A DNA stretch of 41,445 bases from Leuconostoc inhae KCTC 3774 (lineage in GTDB: Bacteria; Bacillota; Bacilli; Lactobacillales; Lactobacillaceae), in NCBI GenBank assembly GCA_000166735.2, contig AEMJ01000570.1:1-41445 (forward strand), written 5' to 3'. Positions 33,483-41,110 of this stretch are shown here, in pieces. The notes beneath the pieces were generated by a model that saw nothing but the letters and a program-made list of their open reading frames with translations, searched no databases and had not been told where the DNA came from. Both the position numbers and the translations under genes were made by a program. Position 1 is the first letter of the stretch; the number at the start of each line of letters is the position of its first letter.

Positions 33483-34765
33483 TCAATGAAAGTAATGAAT
33501 TAAAATGCCACCGAGAACAAGCACGATTGCGCCACCCATACGATTACCCATTTGTGCGAATGCAATCATTCCCATGCGGTTTGAGGCAGATAATACGGCA
33601 ACGTTACCAGTACCACCCATACTATTATCACTCATACCAGCAGCGATAGCTGATTCAACAGGATATAAACCAAATAATTTACCGATAAATGCACTAGCAA
33701 GTCCCATAGCAACGACACTTGTTAAAGTCAAAACAACAAACTTCCAGGTCAGTGATTGTGCTAAGACATGCAAATCAATCAACGCTAAACCTATGCCTGC
33801 TAGCACAGCGTGCGTTAAATTATTCATAATGACTGTATTAAACATCACAACGGATTTTTCTAATTCTTGAGGCACCCAATTGCATGCTTTAAATAAAATA
33901 ACTAAGATAATAATAAAAGCATATGTGTGCACTTTTGGCACATAATTGTTTAGGATAGTACCAACTAAGAAAAATGAAAATGATACCATCATACCCACAC
34001 CAATTTTATTAGCATCTAGTGCTACTAGTGGCTTGGTTTTTCATCGTCACTTATTGGTAATAATACACCATGTCCATCATATTTTGTATTCGCGCCAAGT
34101 TTTGCTATCAAAGCAGCCCCTATAACAGCCATAACATTCCCTAATGTTACGGCTGGAATTAGCTGTGAAAACATTATACCTGAACTTGTTTGTAGTCCCT
34201 GCGCATATATATGTGATAATGGGACAGCACCAGCGCCAATGCCGCCTGCCATTAATGGCATCGAAACAAACATAACTGAATGTCCAAATCCTTCTCCTAG
34301 TAGCATGCCCATCAAACCAACTGCGAAAAATCCAATAACCATAGCTGCAAAAGAAACCGGAATAAATCGAACTGCGGCTTTCAACAGCAGATTACGATTC
34401 ATACCTAAAATTGCCCCGACGATTAAAGCGGCAATATAAAAATCTAGTAATCCAGTGTCGTTCAAAAATATTTTTGTCGCAGAAACAACATTTGAAGGGA
34501 TGACACCTGACGTGGCTAAAGCTGCCGCAGCAAAGATGGTAAATACTGAACCGCCACCTAGATAAGATTTAAAAATCGGCAATTTGTTTCCAATATAGTA
34601 AAACAAATGTCCTAATAACACAAGCATTAAAGTCAAGCCCAACATATTAAGTGGGAGTTTATGGTATGCTATGGTCACCATTAAAATAATTATCATGATG
34701 ATATAAAGTGGTAAACTCACACCACTAATTTTGATTTCCCTAAACCTTCTCATCTTCATTTTCAT
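33483..34765 (-). pseudogene. mleP: MleP malate transporter (2-hydroxycarboxylate family), one frameshift as read
   Basis: A membrane carrier of the 2HCT family (CitP/MleP/MaeP) that imports L-malate, usually in exchange for lactate, and feeds the malolactic enzyme. The N-terminal piece has GGSVFTIFAAAALATSG and LMAGGIGAGAVPLSHIYAQG (the GGxG re-entrant loop). The C-terminal piece has MSDNSMGGTGNVAVLSASNRM and FAQMGNRMGGAIVL (second loop and substrate Arg region). They meet at T-run 34037-34041; one extra base gives continuous KPLVALDANKIGVGMM. About 427 residues in all. It starts 6 bases after the mleA stop. If the shift is real, malate uptake by this route is lost. Confidence 0.85.
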
Positions 34766-34770
34766 CCCTA

Positions 34771-36399
34771 TCAATAATTAGCAGACCATTTAGCATTTCG
34801 CACAACTTGTTTAGCATCACTGATTTTTTCACGATTTAAACCTTGATTTACGACACTTTGTGCAGTTACTTCCGCAATTTTTTGCGAAAACTCAGTCAAA
34901 TTTGAAACTGGTGGCAATACTGCTGCACCTTCTTGATCGGAATCGACTAAACCACCTAATGCATGAATAGCTGCTGAAATTGTTTTTTGTGTTAGCAATT
35001 TCGCAGTTGAGGCTACTAAACCAAAACCTAGTCCAGGATAAATCAATGCGTTGTTACCTTGACCAATTTTATAAGTGACACCTTTGTATTCAACATTTTC
35101 TGCAGGAATACCCGTTGCCACTAATGCTTTGCCATCAGTCCATTTAATTAAATTTTCTGCCGTTGCTTCAGCAAGTTTCGTAGGATTTGACAAAGGAAAG
35201 ATAATTGGACGTGCTGTATGTGTTGCCATTTCTTTTACAATTTCTTCTGTGAATGTACCAGGTTGTGTGGATGTACCAATTAAAACTGTTGGCTTTATTT
35301 CTTTAACCACTGCAGATAATGTTGTTAGTTCTTCAGCATGATTAAATTCGTTTCGCGTTCGAGTAAATGCTTTTTGCGCCACTGTTAAATCTGACATATC
35401 ATCGAATAACAAGCCTTGTTTGTCAACAAGATAAAAATGTTTTTTAGCCTCTTTAGCAGATAACCCTGCTTCTTGTAGTTCAGTAAAAATTTGATTAACA
35501 ATGCCCATGCCAGCTGTTCCAGCTCCAAATGTTACAAATGTTTGGTCAATGAGCCGTTCTTTTGAAATATTTAATGCGCCAAAAACACCTGCCAAGACAA
35601 TCATGCCTGTTCCTTGAATATCATCATTAAAAGTTGCAATTTTATTTTTATACTTGTCTAAGATAACCTGTGCATTTGCACGACCAAAATCTTCCCAATG
35701 CAGTAATGACTCTGGGAATAGTTCTTGTTCTGCGATCACAAACTGATCAATAAATTCAAGATAGGCATCACCTGCAATTCGTGCATGCTTATTTCCGAGA
35801 TAGCGTTCGTTTTCTAGCAGTGATTGATTGTTTGTACCAGCATCGATGCTAATTGGCAAAACACTGGCTGGATCAATGCCGGCCGCTGCAGTATAAACCA
35901 TTAATTTACCAACAGCAATATCGACACCGTTGACACCCCAATCACCCATACCCAAAATACCCTCAGCATCTGTTACCACAATTAACTTAATATCGCGGCC
36001 GTCTGCTGCATTAATAAGTGATTGCTTGATATCTTCTGGTTTGTCCACTGATAAAAATGTGGCATTTTGTGGATTTATATAAATGTCATTGTACTGCTCA
36101 ATTGAATCCGCAACAACAGGATCATAAACAATTGGCATGAATTCGGAAACGTGTTGATCCATTAAATGATAAAACAAAGTAATATTTTCATTAAAGAGGT
36201 TCATCAAGAAAATACGCTTTTCAAGTGGTGCTGTTTTTGATTGGAATTGTTGGTATGCTTGCTCAGCTTGTTCGTCAATGGTTTGCACCTGACTAGGTAA
36301 TGTGCCATTTAGGCCCAATGTCTTTCGTTCTGTTAACGTAAATCCAGTCCCTTTGTTCAAAAAGGGATTCCGTAATACTTCATATCCTTTTGCATGCAT
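34771..36399 (-). CDS. mleA: Malolactic enzyme
   Basis: A 542-residue cytoplasmic, NAD- and Mn-dependent enzyme that decarboxylates L-malate directly to L-lactate and CO2. It shows the malic-enzyme fold: [20 protein letters not shown] (malate/NAD region), [20 protein letters not shown] (metal-binding Asp/Glu), [14 protein letters not shown] (NAD loop) and IIFPLSNPT. The length matches the family at about 541. The start is ATG 36399 behind AAGGTGG. It is first in the mleA-mleP operon, divergent from the LysR gene. Intact. Confidence 0.95.
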
Positions 36400-37535: not shown

Positions 37536-37934
37536 TTAAGCCAATCGCATACCTGCATCCAGCGTGTTATCTAACTTATAAATTCGTTCTACGTCTATAA
37601 TCACCACAGCCGCGCGTGGAAATCTGTCATAGATTTTTGTTTTTGCTAAAATTTCTGAGGCATAATCATCATTCTCGTGAATATGCGCTTTACCCTCAAA
37701 TCTAAACCCTTTTTCTGCCACTCGATCGACTACTGCAACAGCTACTAAGCCATTTGTTAGTAAATTTTCATAGGCGTGCCTAAACGTATGTTCATAATAA
37801 ATGAGATGTGAATCATCTAAAACATGTAATGAACCCTTTGGCCCAATTTGTGGTGAACCATCTGGGCTTGTTGTCGCCAAAAAAGGAAATTGATCATTAA
37901 TCATGTCTTGCATATTTTGAGATAAAATCACCAT
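37536..37934 (-). CDS. Pyridoxamine 5'-phosphate oxidase-family (FMN-binding) protein
   Basis: A 132-residue split-beta-barrel protein: QFPFLATTSPDGSPQIGPKG (the usual flavin-pocket strand), LIYYEHTFRHAYENLL and VAVAVVDRVAEKGFRFEGKA. Proteins of this size bind FMN or a related cofactor and act as small reductases; the real substrate is unknown. ATG 37934 lies six bases after GGGAGG, so the longer upstream frame is discarded. Single gene. Confidence 0.8.
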   Translation of the reverse strand: MVILSQNMQDMINDQFPFLATTSPDGSPQIGPKGSLHVLDDSHLIYYEHTFRHAYENLLTNGLVAVAVVDRVAEKGFRFEGKAHIHENDDYASEILAKTKIYDRFPRAAVVIIDVERIYKLDNTLDAGMRLA

Positions 37935-37964
37935 TTTTGACCTCCCTTCTAAATATTTAATCAA

Positions 37965-38385
37965 AATAATTATGACAGATCACCCACCAGCAACTTTAAT
38001 CGGTTCGTTCATCTAATTATCTACCCGCTATCAAGTGAGGATGATTGATCATATCATTTGTCACACTATCATCAACTAATATCGAGACTCTGTTTTTTAA
38101 ATGTGTTAGATTAATGTTACTCATTTTTATTCTGCATTATTGTCTCCTGATATTATAAATTGATGAACAAAAAAGTTAATTTATTTAAAACTCATTTTTC
38201 ATAAAGACATAATTTTCTAAATAATAACAAACTTAATGCTGATTTGCAAATATTTTGATTGTGTTTATTTTGTAATAATTATTGAATCATATTACATATA
38301 TAAAGATGATATAATGACCATAATTTTAAAATAGTATTTTTAAAATTTAATGTTAATTTTATTAAAGCAAAGGAGAAGGAACATT
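37965..38385. other. Intergenic region upstream of kdsA, with a short frame
   Basis: It contains the kdsA promoter region: TATAAT near 38311-38316, with no convincing -35 at 17 bp. On the minus strand a 35-codon frame at 38017-38124 (MSNINLTHLKNRVSILVDDS) has only a distant ribosome site and ends in TAA. It may be a remnant. Nothing else recognised. Confidence 0.35.
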
Positions 38386-39237
38386 ATGGCTAAAATAACT
38401 GATGTATTTCAAGGATATGGTTTTAGTAACGATCGACTAACACTGTTAGCCGGACCCTGTGCAATTGAATCATACGACACATGTGCTGAAGTAGTTGAGA
38501 CACTGAAAAACTTAACAGACAAGCTAGATATTAATTACGTTTTTAAGGCTTCGTTTGATAAAGCTAATCGTAGCGCAATTGAATCTGAACGTGGCGCTGG
38601 TATGACGGCTGGTTTAGAAGTCTTGCAAAAAATTAAAGACAACTATCAAGTACCAATAGTAACTGACGTACATGAATCCTACCAATGTGAACCTGTGGCC
38701 AAGGTGGCTGATGTTCTACAAATTCCTGCCTATTTGAGTAGACAAACCGATTTATTAGTAGCAGCAGCTAAGACTGGGCTCGTAGTTAATATCAAAAAAG
38801 CACAATTTATGGCACCGGAAGACATTAAAAGTGCAGTTAACAAAGTTGCTCAGACGAATGAACATATTCTGGTTACCGAGCGTGGCACAATGTTTGGTTA
38901 TCACCAATTAGTTGTTGACATGACAAGCTTAATTCAAATGCGTGACACAGGTTATCCTATTATTTTTGATGCAACACACGCTGTCCAAATTCCAAGTGGT
39001 TATGGAAATCATTCTGGCGGTAATCGTGATTACGCTTTCCCTCTGATGCGTGCCGCTTTAGCTATAGGTATTGATGGTATTTTTGCAGAGGTACACCCTA
39101 ACCCACCTGAAGCCATTTCTGATCAGGATAGTCAACTTTACTTATCTAAAATTCAACCTATTTTAGAAAATGCCAACAAACTCTTTCACGAACATCTCGA
39201 CATGAAGGCGGTGTATGACAATGACGAATTACTTTGA
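38386..39237 (+). CDS. kdsA: 3-deoxy-8-phosphooctulonate (KDO-8-P) synthase
   Basis: A 283-residue TIM-barrel enzyme that condenses phosphoenolpyruvate with D-arabinose 5-phosphate to KDO 8-phosphate. All family motifs are present: LLAGPCAIES, VFKASFDKANRS, IPAYLSRQTDLL, VNIKKAQFMAP, ERGTMFGYHQLVVDM and FDATHAVQIPSG. The Cys in AGPC (residue 25), the His of DATH, the Glu in AEVHP and the Asp in ISDQDS fit the metal-dependent class. The start is ATG 38386 behind AAGGAGAAGGA. Its 3' end overlaps the isomerase gene by 17 bases. KDO is a hallmark of Gram-negative lipopolysaccharide, so its use in this cell is unclear. Intact. Confidence 0.9.
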   Translation: MAKITDVFQGYGFSNDRLTLLAGPCAIESYDTCAEVVETLKNLTDKLDINYVFKASFDKANRSAIESERGAGMTAGLEVLQKIKDNYQVPIVTDVHESYQCEPVAKVADVLQIPAYLSRQTDLLVAAAKTGLVVNIKKAQFMAPEDIKSAVNKVAQTNEHILVTERGTMFGYHQLVVDMTSLIQMRDTGYPIIFDATHAVQIPSGYGNHSGGNRDYAFPLMRAALAIGIDGIFAEVHPNPPEAISDQDSQLYLSKIQPILENANKLFHEHLDMKAVYDNDELL

Positions 39238-40176
39238 TGACGCTAAAATAACTTTTGACACAGAAATTGCTGCTTTACAAACAGTCCGCGAGACATTAGA
39301 TGAAAATTTTGATGAGGTGGTTGAAGCAATTTTAAATACAAAAGGCCGTTCCATATTTATCGCCATTGGTAAATCTGGTATTATTGCTGAAAAAATAGCT
39401 GCCTCGTTGTCATCCGTTGGTGTCCCAAGCTTTTTCATTGATGCTGGTACCGCATACCACGGAGACCTAGGTCGTGTCTCAGCAGATGATTTAGTTATTT
39501 TTATTTCAAATAGTGGTGAAACACAAGAAGTTGTACAAACACTTTTTGCACTGAAAAATATTCATCAAAACGAGTTAAAAACGATTGCTCTCACAGGTTC
39601 TGAAGATGCAACGTTAGCTAAAAATACTGACATTTTTTTGAAAGTAGATGTCGCAGAAGAAGCTGACCCAACTAAACTAGCACCCACAAGTTCTACCACT
39701 GCTACACTTGTTATGGGTGATGCACTGCTAATTGCCGTCGAAAAAGCAAAGGCATTCAAACGAGCAGATTTTGCACTATACCATCCCGGTGGCTCAATTG
39801 GTAAAATGTTACTGCGGGATGTTGCACATTCTATGCACACTAAGATTCCTTATGTTCAAACAACAACACCAATTAACGATGTTATTTACCGTATTAGTGA
39901 TTTTGGCGTTGGCATGACTTTAGTTAAAACACCCGAAGAAAAAGTTATTGGCATTATAACAGATGGTGATATTCGTAAAAAGTTTTTATACATTAATCAA
40001 GTCAAAAATTCAACTGCTGCTGATTATATGACTGAAGGATTTATTAGCATCAATCAAAATGCACGTAATAGCGCAGCTTGGAAAAAATGGCATCGAATAA
40101 TATATCCAATTTGGTAGTCAAAGATGACGATGATAGCGTCGTTGGCATTATCACCATTCATGATGTGCTGGAATAG
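39221..40176 (+). CDS. kpsF: Arabinose-5-phosphate isomerase (KpsF/KdsD), C-terminal frameshift as read
   Basis: A sugar isomerase that makes D-arabinose 5-phosphate from D-ribulose 5-phosphate, the substrate of KdsA. It has a SIS domain (SIFIAIGKSGIIAEKIAASL, FISNSGETQEVVQTL) and the KpsF signature ALYHPGGSIGKMLL. A CBS domain (FGVGMTLVKTPEEKVIGIIT) follows. The second CBS domain is cut at 40117; one extra A in the run 40082-40087 continues it (MASNNISNLVVK, VVGIITIHDVLE) to 40176, normal length. The start is ATG 39221, nine bases after GGCGG; a second ATG two codons upstream is too close to that site. It overlaps kdsA, so the two are translated together. Confidence 0.9.
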
Positions 40177-40206
40177 TTGCATTGACTTAAAATATAATCA
40201 ATAAAC

Positions 40207-40237
40207 AACCCCACTAACTTCAACAGTTAGTGGGGTT
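40207..40237. terminator. Terminator between kpsF and aldo/keto reductase
   Basis: AACCCCACTAAC and GTTAGTGGGGTT form a perfect 12-bp stem with a 7-nt loop. T residues follow on both strands, so it can serve both convergent genes. Confidence 0.75.
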
Positions 40238-40261
40238 TTAAAAGTCTATTTTGTTCGTAAT

Positions 40262-41110
40262 TTAATTAAATTCTTCATAAGTATTTGGATCCTGATTATC
40301 CACACGTCCATCTACTTTGGTCAATGAGCTAATAGCAATTACTTCATCTGCTGTTAACTCAAAATTCCAAAGTGCAAGATTATCGCGTTGGTGTTGTAGG
40401 CTACCAGCTTTAGGGACAGGTAGCACACCACGTTGAAGATGCCAACGCAGAATAATCTGTCCTGCATTTTTGTGATATTTTTCTGCTAATTCTAAAATAA
40501 TTGGTTCTTTTAATTCTCCAATTCCACGACCTAATGGACTCCAAGCTTCAGTAACTATTCCGCGGTCTTTGTTAGCTTGCAACAAACTATTCTGTATCCA
40601 ATAAGGGTGAATTTCGTTTTGATTGACCGCTGGTGTGACACCTGTTGCTTCAATTATGCGATCCAAGTGTGCCGCTTCAAAATTCGAGACGCCAATAGAT
40701 CGTATCAACCCACGTTTTTGAGCTTCAATAAGAGCAGTCCAAGCTTCAACATAATTATCACGCTTAGGCAATGGCCAATGAATTAAATACAAGTCCAAAT
40801 AATCTAAGCGTAAACGCAAAAGTGTTTCCTCAATCATTTTTAGAGCATCTTCCCGATGATGATATTGTCCTGGGAGCTTTGACGTGACATAAAATGATGA
40901 TCTCGGAATGCCCGATCGCCTGATTGCTTCACCAACGGCACCCTCACTATCATAATTGGTAGACGTATCTATCAAACGGTACCCAGTTTGAATAGCTGCT
41001 AAAATTTGATCAACACCTTGCATACCACGTATTTGATATGTTCCCAAAGCTATCTGAGGCAATATGTGTCCATCGTTTAAATTATAAACTGGTACAGTAT
41101 TATTATTCAC
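40262..41110 (-). CDS. Aldo/keto reductase (2,5-diketo-D-gluconate reductase-like)
   Basis: A 282-residue NADPH-dependent TIM-barrel reductase of the AKR5 type. The catalytic tetrad is complete at Asp48, Tyr53, Lys78 and His111 (LIDTSTNYD, VTSKLPG, LYLIHWPL). The cofactor segment VLPVPKAGSLQHQRDNL is present, as is IGVSNFEAAHL. The length is normal. A single gene starting at ATG 41110, with GGAGAAA in front. It probably reduces aldehydes or ketones; the substrate is not determined. Confidence 0.9.
   Translation of the reverse strand: MNNNTVPVYNLNDGHILPQIALGTYQIRGMQGVDQILAAIQTGYRLIDTSTNYDSEGAVGEAIRRSGIPRSSFYVTSKLPGQYHHREDALKMIEETLLRLRLDYLDLYLIHWPLPKRDNYVEAWTALIEAQKRGLIRSIGVSNFEAAHLDRIIEATGVTPAVNQNEIHPYWIQNSLLQANKDRGIVTEAWSPLGRGIGELKEPIILELAEKYHKNAGQIILRWHLQRGVLPVPKAGSLQHQRDNLALWNFELTADEVIAISSLTKVDGRVDNQDPNTYEEFN

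Follow-up and report, generated by a model that had tools for sequence, protein, structure and literature searches.

3-Deoxy-D-manno-octulosonate (KDO) is made in Gram-negative bacteria by a pathway in which KdsD, KpsF or GutQ is followed by KdsA, KdsC, KdsB and finally WaaA, and to our knowledge its intermediate KDO-8-phosphate has been described solely as a precursor of envelope or cell-wall sugars. The Gram-positive Clostridium tetani is said, in the title of a 2017 paper by Cech, Markin and Woodard, to have an arabinose-5-phosphate isomerase. Bacillus coahuilensis m2-6 harbours an island with kdsB, kpsC, kdsD, kdsC and kdsA, according to the report describing it (PMC4744853). No paper on a kdsA-kpsF pair in lactic acid bacteria was found in the open-licence literature, and the available text of one article (PMC11678924) draws no link between kdsA and Leuconostoc. 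Here, we have analysed such a pair in a 41,445-nucleotide stretch of DNA from Leuconostoc inhae KCTC 3774 (hereafter the window), which is contig C324 of a 2.30-Mb draft genome (893 contigs, 89% complete). The initial annotation of this DNA had treated KDO genes in a Gram-positive bacterium as an oddity; the pair is indeed there, but a Gram-positive KDO island was already in print (PMC4744853). The two genes recur side by side in eight genera of Lactobacillaceae, and the KDO-8-phosphate that they are predicted to make probably has a role not yet described, because the enzymes for this sugar's known use were not found in the 30 genomes that carry the pair. The genes of the pair are placed as follows.

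38386 to 39237, forward strand: kdsA, KDO-8-phosphate synthase, assigned from curated models above cut-off, the nearest solved relative and active-site residues.

39221 to 40117, forward strand: kpsF, of the KpsF/GutQ sugar-phosphate isomerase family (SIS and CBS domains), in the frame as it stands in the draft, assigned from TIGR00393, the SIS domain and one CBS domain.

40083 to 40176, forward strand: C-terminal remainder of kpsF, comprising the greater part of the second CBS domain, frame-shifted in the draft and intact in G085, a complete genome of the same species.

The kdsA open reading frame spans 38350-39237, and its start was set at 38386, after a ribosome-binding site. Its product scores above the cut-offs of two KDO-8-phosphate synthase equivalog models, NF003543 (375.9 bits, cut-off 242) and TIGR01362 (354.2 bits, cut-off 314), and below that of a third, NF009109 (283.6 of 457). 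The nearest solved relatives by sequence are KDO-8-phosphate synthases, with entry 1fwn, which we take to be the Aquifex aeolicus enzyme, at the top, and, among the best 80 of 496 relatives, Leuconostoc gelidum KCTC 3527 has a KdsA that shares 96% identity with the window protein. C11, the KANRS motif (K46-A-N-R-S50), H185, E222 and D233, in Aquifex numbering, are conserved in all 32 lactic-acid-bacterial rows of one alignment and in 31 of 31 of a second; we assume for these residues the roles familiar from the family, the cysteine presumably marking the metal-dependent type and D233 serving as a metal ligand. KpsF likewise exceeds the TIGR00393 cut-off (246.5 bits against 203.7), with an SIS and the first CBS domain in the window protein, and, as a truncated query, scores below the KdsD and GutQ equivalog cut-offs (238.9 of 505 and 216.9 of 481). 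Among proteins of solved structure, those closest to KpsF in sequence are a phosphosugar isomerase and an arabinose-5-phosphate isomerase. K59, E111, E152 and the HPGG motif (E. coli numbering) are conserved in 30 of 30 relatives and are also visible in the window row; we take K59, E111, E152 and H193 to be catalytic. The claim that both proteins retain their catalytic motifs is therefore upheld, in 32 of 32 rows for KdsA and 30 of 30 for KpsF.

To establish how widely the pair occurs, 397 Lactobacillaceae genomes were searched, together with wider samples of 395 Lactobacillales and 398 Bacilli. KdsA matched 40 of the Lactobacillaceae genomes at E<=1e-20, 30 of them holding KdsA at 67-100% identity; the other ten, at 29-31% identity, the level of 3-deoxy-D-arabino-heptulosonate 7-phosphate (DAHP) synthases, were left out. 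The 30 kdsA-bearing genomes, in which the window's genome and G085 are counted separately although they are one species, are at least 90% complete in 29 cases (the window's own being 89%), and cover eight genera, including Leuconostoc (12 of 19 genomes), Weissella, Periweissella, Oenococcus, Ligilactobacillus and Liquorilactobacillus. Every one has an open kdsA frame with kpsF adjoining it. A KpsF search of the same 397 genomes (E<=1e-35) matched 37, with near-full-length matches only in the same 30 (in G338 in two pieces); the matches in the remaining seven were short (about 190-200 residues) or stop-containing, at 40-49% identity, and no full-length kpsF without kdsA was found among the 397 at this threshold. 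Short or stop-containing KpsF-like stretches of 40-49% identity were seen in G049, G107, G132, G186, G316, G330, G369 and G392, seven of these eight having no KdsA-level match. The two-gene KDO-8-phosphate module of the initial annotation thus stands as regards curated-family matches and adjacency in 30 of 30 genomes, and needs correction in one respect, since the kpsF frame in the window ends at 40117 and not at 40176. The 17-base overlap of the two genes (39221-39237) is as described, with the kpsF start at 39221 or 39215, and an overlap of this length is also possible in most Leuconostoc copies and in those of Weissella and Periweissella.

All six Lactobacillales genomes with kdsA are Lactobacillaceae, and in the Bacilli sample the gene occurs in five, the window's own and four others. 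All four others have KdsC-like and KpsF-like matches inside the fetched 3.7-kb locus; kdsB and kpsS-like genes were seen in two of them (L116, by way of L050, and L117), the loci of the remaining two being too short to tell. The matched genes of L116 are 100% identical to those of Exiguobacterium L050, which shows kdsA-kdsC-kpsF-kdsB and KpsS-like genes, whilst L117 has kdsB and a KpsS-like piece. As an observation in its own right, the Exiguobacterium aestuarii locus L050 (5253-13072) is a Gram-positive KDO cluster, kdsA-kdsC-kpsF-kdsB, adjoining two KpsS-like genes. A plasmid record of Bacillus velezensis FIO1408 (L035, no annotation), carrying kpsF-kdsB-kdsA and dTDP-rhamnose genes, was rejected as a further Gram-positive example: it has 57% GC, its KdsA is long-branched and groups with an alphaproteobacterium and a Cytophagales row, and the record may be misassigned. 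Separately, 24 viral-collection contigs (L120-L143) encode KdsA relatives of at best 48% identity, and some phages or proviruses may carry such a relative. That the pair itself is phage or defence cargo was considered and rejected, the viral-contig matches being no higher than 48% identity and no PADLOC match being found.

The interrupted kpsF frame of the window almost surely reflects a sequencing error, although a strain difference is still conceivable. Compared with G085 (a single contig of 1,954,080 bases; its locus is L157), the window shows one substitution and ten single-base insertions or deletions over 12,225 aligned columns, and it is because these far outnumber substitutions that we read the break in this way. 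Eight are deletions beside homopolymer runs, one of which falls in kpsF at 40082, moving the second-CBS portion, up to 40176, into another frame. In G085 kpsF is an open frame of 323 residues with SIS and two CBS stretches. The gene is unbroken in 28 of the 30 pair-bearing genomes, the exceptions being the window's genome and G338, another Leuconostoc genome, in which kpsF (L008, C6:155604-156474) lies in two frames, whether in reality or by error.

The initial annotation had noted no later KDO enzymes in the window and suggested that the partners might lie elsewhere. Genome-wide family searches did not bear this out: PF02348, TIGR01670, PF04413 and PF05159 brought up no credible KdsB, KdsC, WaaA or KpsC/KpsS in any of the 30 kdsA-bearing Lactobacillaceae genomes. 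The three Pfam searches score in E. coli, and PF05159 also in Bacillus subtilis, whilst TIGR01670 exceeded its cut-off in four of 14 control genomes. For KdsB, 15 genomes had weak PF02348 matches scoring at most 25.5 bits, and nine genomes pass the 22.6-bit Pfam cut-off; 14 of the 15 matches sit in frames of 459-470 residues, the three that were checked all being GlmU, and the last, in G251, is a 240-residue IspD/TarI-like cytidylyltransferase adjoining a LicD-like gene. TIGR01670 (KdsC) exceeded its cut-off in none of the 30 genomes and matched partially in all of them (best 45.9 of 106.95 bits). Judged by size, these are probably general haloacid dehalogenase (HAD) phosphatases, one of which could stand in for KdsC and free KDO. 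Neither PF04413 (WaaA) nor PF05159 (KpsC/S) matched in any of the 30.

The history of the pair was considered from a KdsA tree of 102 rows, from which viral rows, repeat copies of loci and anything shorter than 230 residues had been removed, and in which the outgroup was the best 80 of 496 relatives plus Bacilli-sample matches and plasmid loci. The 31 rows from lactic acid bacteria group together as a single clade (100/100) on a stem of 0.77, placed, with this outgroup, beside Bacteroidota and Exiguobacterium rows. The simplest reading of this tree is a single transfer into lactic acid bacteria from a Bacteroidota-like source. Weissella rows nest within Leuconostoc (98/89), which suggests later exchange between these genera. 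The ratio of nonsynonymous to synonymous substitution rates (dN/dS) for kdsA is 0.015-0.085 in 17 of 18 computable pairs (19 compared) and 0.29 in a near-identical plasmid pair, and for kpsF it is 0.017-0.15 over 18 pairs; the pair is under purifying selection.

The two genes also occur on plasmids. Among 72,556 plasmid records, 110 have a KdsA match, and only those of L. citreum CBA3624 and L. mesenteroides ML2 exceed 60% identity. Between the L. citreum plasmid and the L. pseudomesenteroides chromosome (L040) there is 98.6% identity across the pair and its ribosome-binding site, from 17 bases upstream of kdsA to four bases before the end of kpsF. Apart from this, the two stretches align only in GlsB-like genes (227 columns, 75% identity), and the chromosomal region upstream of kdsA gave no alignment with the plasmid. 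The L. mesenteroides plasmid, compared with the L. citreum plasmid and not with L040, is 97.8% identical to it over 2,608 columns around the pair. Downstream on both plasmids lies an IS30 transposase gene, then, on the opposite strand, genes for a short-chain dehydrogenase/reductase (SDR), CorA, DUF1345, Asp23, AmaP and GlsB. These alignments suggest that what moved was the pair together with its ribosome-binding site, which would then have come under another promoter; alternatively, the donor may have been a lineage whose flanks differ.

Taking these findings into account, we somewhat favour a self-contained pair that makes KDO-8-phosphate for a soluble role without activation by cytidine monophosphate (CMP). 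KpsF would convert ribulose 5-phosphate to arabinose 5-phosphate, and KdsA would join this to phosphoenolpyruvate (PEP) to give KDO-8-phosphate and inorganic phosphate, as their families and conserved residues predict. The known dedicated KDO pathway in Lactobacillaceae would end at this point, the useful product being either KDO-8-phosphate itself or KDO freed by a general HAD phosphatase, and its role, soluble and CMP-independent, could be that of a stress metabolite or of a drain for PEP and pentose phosphate. In Leuconostoc, gene neighbourhood would make stress the leading setting. The observations that carry this reading are the family membership and conserved residues of both proteins, their constant pairing, the absence of credible partners, the single clade, the selection and the mobility described above. 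Rather more tentatively, and a little short of what we would call probable, we suggest a portable two-gene cassette, with clade-specific residues near the active site, that provides KDO-8-phosphate or KDO as a soluble metabolite, an osmolyte, a signal or a PEP and pentose-phosphate drain outside envelope glycans. That KDO-8-phosphate might be an end product with another use had been one of the options in the initial annotation; the evidence favours this option, the use itself being a proposal.

Several points weigh against a soluble, CMP-independent role. The activities of KdsA and KpsF are predicted from sequence only, substitutions peculiar to the clade, close to catalytic residues of KdsA and KpsF alike, could mean another substrate, and family searches are blind to a non-homologous route of KDO activation. 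The pair is missing from seven of the 19 Leuconostoc genomes. The stress-gene neighbourhood is confined to Leuconostoc and absent at four of its 13 loci, and the contexts in Weissella (luxS, pyr) and Oenococcus (mostly ccpN-ppdK) differ from it.

The substitutions raise the prospect of a pair with a shifted substrate, in which KpsF isomerises another ketose phosphate and KdsA combines the product with PEP to yield a related 3-deoxy-ulosonate phosphate. Two residues after D233, at position 235, all 31 KdsA rows from lactic acid bacteria have Asp, which is found there in none of 93 others (these include viral rows, Aquifex and, by the length filter, L035). In KpsF, compared without G338, second copies and matches of up to 250 residues and with L035 among the others, position 85 is Thr, Asn, Ser or Val in 30 of 30 clade rows and Glu in 46 of 46 others, position 154 is Asp throughout the 30 and in only one of the 46 (Cys in 45 of the 46 and in no clade row), and L156 is replaced by Thr in all 30. 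These changes, whose nearness to the active site we judge from the alignments, may alter metal or substrate handling, and the long stem below the clade in the KdsA tree would fit such a shift. Given that KANRS, C11, H185, E222 and D233 of KdsA and K59, E111, E152 and HPGG of KpsF are unchanged, and that KdsA scores above curated KDO-8-phosphate synthase cut-offs, we consider a shifted substrate unlikely, though less so than the other alternatives. Somewhat more doubtful is the attachment of KDO to a cell-surface glycan by enzymes unrelated to known KdsC, KdsB and KDO transferases, a version of the unusual glycan put forward in the initial annotation. Gram-positive precedents speak for it, since the four other Bacilli have kdsC and kpsF beside kdsA, joined in two cases by kdsB and a kpsS-like gene, and a Bacillus KDO island is in print (PMC4744853); so do the partial KdsC-model matches in 30 of 30 genomes and the G251 cytidylyltransferase beside its LicD-like gene. 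It is nevertheless disfavoured because the known activating and transferring enzymes (KdsB, WaaA, KpsC/S) were not credibly found in the 30 genomes, and kpsF is the only gene that stays beside kdsA across all genera.

The missing partners, together with the broken kpsF frames of the window draft and G338, might instead be taken to mean that the pair is a functionless, decaying remnant of a transferred KDO pathway. We regard this as very unlikely in view of the low dN/dS of both genes, the intact frames of kpsF in 28 and of kdsA in all 30 genomes, the resemblance of the window's break to a sequencing error, and the spread of the pair over eight genera and onto plasmids. Least credible of all is that KdsA is a spare DAHP synthase of the shikimate pathway, an idea that could draw on the shared membership of KdsA and type-I DAHP synthases in Pfam family PF00793. 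A second PF00793 protein, a type-I DAHP synthase, is present in 21 of the 30 genomes, and aroB (PF01761) in exactly those 21. The other nine (G019, G029, G058, G065, G089, G095, G121, G145 and G330) have neither, among PF00793-type DAHP synthases, the only type searched, and yet keep KdsA, which cannot feed a normal shikimate pathway there because aroB is missing. KdsA also carries the KANRS motif of KDO-8-phosphate synthases. KdsA as the shikimate DAHP synthase was accordingly rejected, and the spare-enzyme idea is refuted at gene level in these nine genomes.

The surroundings of the pair were compared across genera, as the initial annotation had proposed; the pair is constant, and there is no neighbour common to all genera besides the kdsA-kpsF partner itself. 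At nine of 13 Leuconostoc loci besides the window (L157, L036, L037, L038, L156, L039, L040, L033 and L034, with L152-L155 the exceptions), at least one of the Asp23, AmaP, GlsB-like, CorA and SDR genes starts within 10 kb of the pair. The Asp23, AmaP and GlsB-like assignments were checked by profile in some loci, and we judge these neighbourhoods to represent about three independent arrangements. The last 13.4 kb of the window hold, of the neighbour genes listed, only those for a PPOX-type flavoprotein and an aldo-keto reductase, and the contig ends short of where L157 carries a complete GlsB-like gene. In six Weissella loci (L041-L045, L158) the pair is flanked by luxS on one side and the pyr operon on the other. 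Genes resembling pyrF and pyrE also occur close to it in both Liquorilactobacillus loci (L049, L151) and in one g21 locus (L148), the pyr profiles having been checked in L042, L049 and L148. Pyrimidine-synthesis genes are thus near the pair in three genera, in differing arrangements. In Oenococcus, a CcpN-like regulator gene and a pyruvate phosphate dikinase (PPDK) gene follow the pair at four of five loci (L144, 10965-14378; L048; L146; L147), although at L147 the PPDK gene is split into two frames and at two loci an alcohol dehydrogenase-like gene intervenes; a link to PEP supply is possible. Because the neighbours differ between Leuconostoc, Weissella and Oenococcus, context gives no single role. 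A role tied solely to the phosphoketolase pathway is unlikely, since the pair is also found in Ligilactobacillus and Liquorilactobacillus, which are not known as obligate heterofermenters.

Three elements flank the pair in the window.

38243 to 38260, forward strand: upstream motif TTTGCAAATATTTTGATT, conserved ahead of chromosomal kdsA.

38307 to 38315, forward strand: possible extended -10, TGATATAAT, a consensus match only and absent from the computed site list.

40207 to 40237, no strand assigned: 13-pair hairpin separating kpsF from the aldo-keto reductase gene that converges on it, listed on the reverse strand only, with 2 sites found against 1.5 expected.

The upstream motif, of the form TTTGCAAA[C/T]ATTTTGATT, has 0-1 mismatches to its consensus in the window, G085, L. 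gelidum and L. miyukkimchii and 3-5 in four other Leuconostoc loci, and none was found at the corresponding place on the plasmid copies. Found thus in the L. gelidum group, it may be a regulator site. A regulator common to kdsA and the stress genes was considered and rejected: a regulon is not supported because a scan of 16 loci gave no second place with two or fewer mismatches. The candidate -10, TATAAT, begins 76 bases upstream of the kdsA start, and the hairpin is a possible shared terminator of kpsF and the aldo-keto reductase gene. No known regulatory RNA was found at the gathering threshold within 37900-40300. Elsewhere in the window, a citrate/malate (2-hydroxycarboxylate) symporter gene (33483-34774, reverse strand) adjoins the malolactic enzyme gene and is in two frames in the draft; in G085 it is a single frame of 430 residues, the window missing one base beside a homopolymer run at 34042.

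The conservation of the pair in eight genera without the remaining pathway points to a second use of KDO-8-phosphate in food bacteria. It also exposes a pitfall of annotation, in that such genes are classed as lipopolysaccharide enzymes even where the bacterium makes no lipopolysaccharide. Direct testing is possible, as pair-bearing and pair-free strains exist within one genus and two plasmid-borne copies are known. Compared with the Gram-negative pathway to CMP-KDO, the first two enzymes are alike, belonging to the same families and having the same catalytic residues, whereas the lactic pair has a monoderm host, clade-specific residues and, in the 30 genomes, no credible phosphatase, cytidylyltransferase or transferase of a known family. 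Clostridium tetani offers an arabinose-5-phosphate isomerase in a Gram-positive bacterium, as here, with the difference that the lactic isomerase gene adjoins kdsA in 30 of 30 genomes. The clusters of Exiguobacterium aestuarii and Bacillus coahuilensis m2-6, which presumably make a KDO glycan, carry kdsC, kdsB and kpsC/kpsS, genes not found in the lactic acid bacteria (PMC4744853 for the B. coahuilensis island). Like the lactic pair, however, the clusters of E. aestuarii L050 and B. coahuilensis bring together kdsA and an arabinose-5-phosphate isomerase gene in a Gram-positive bacterium.

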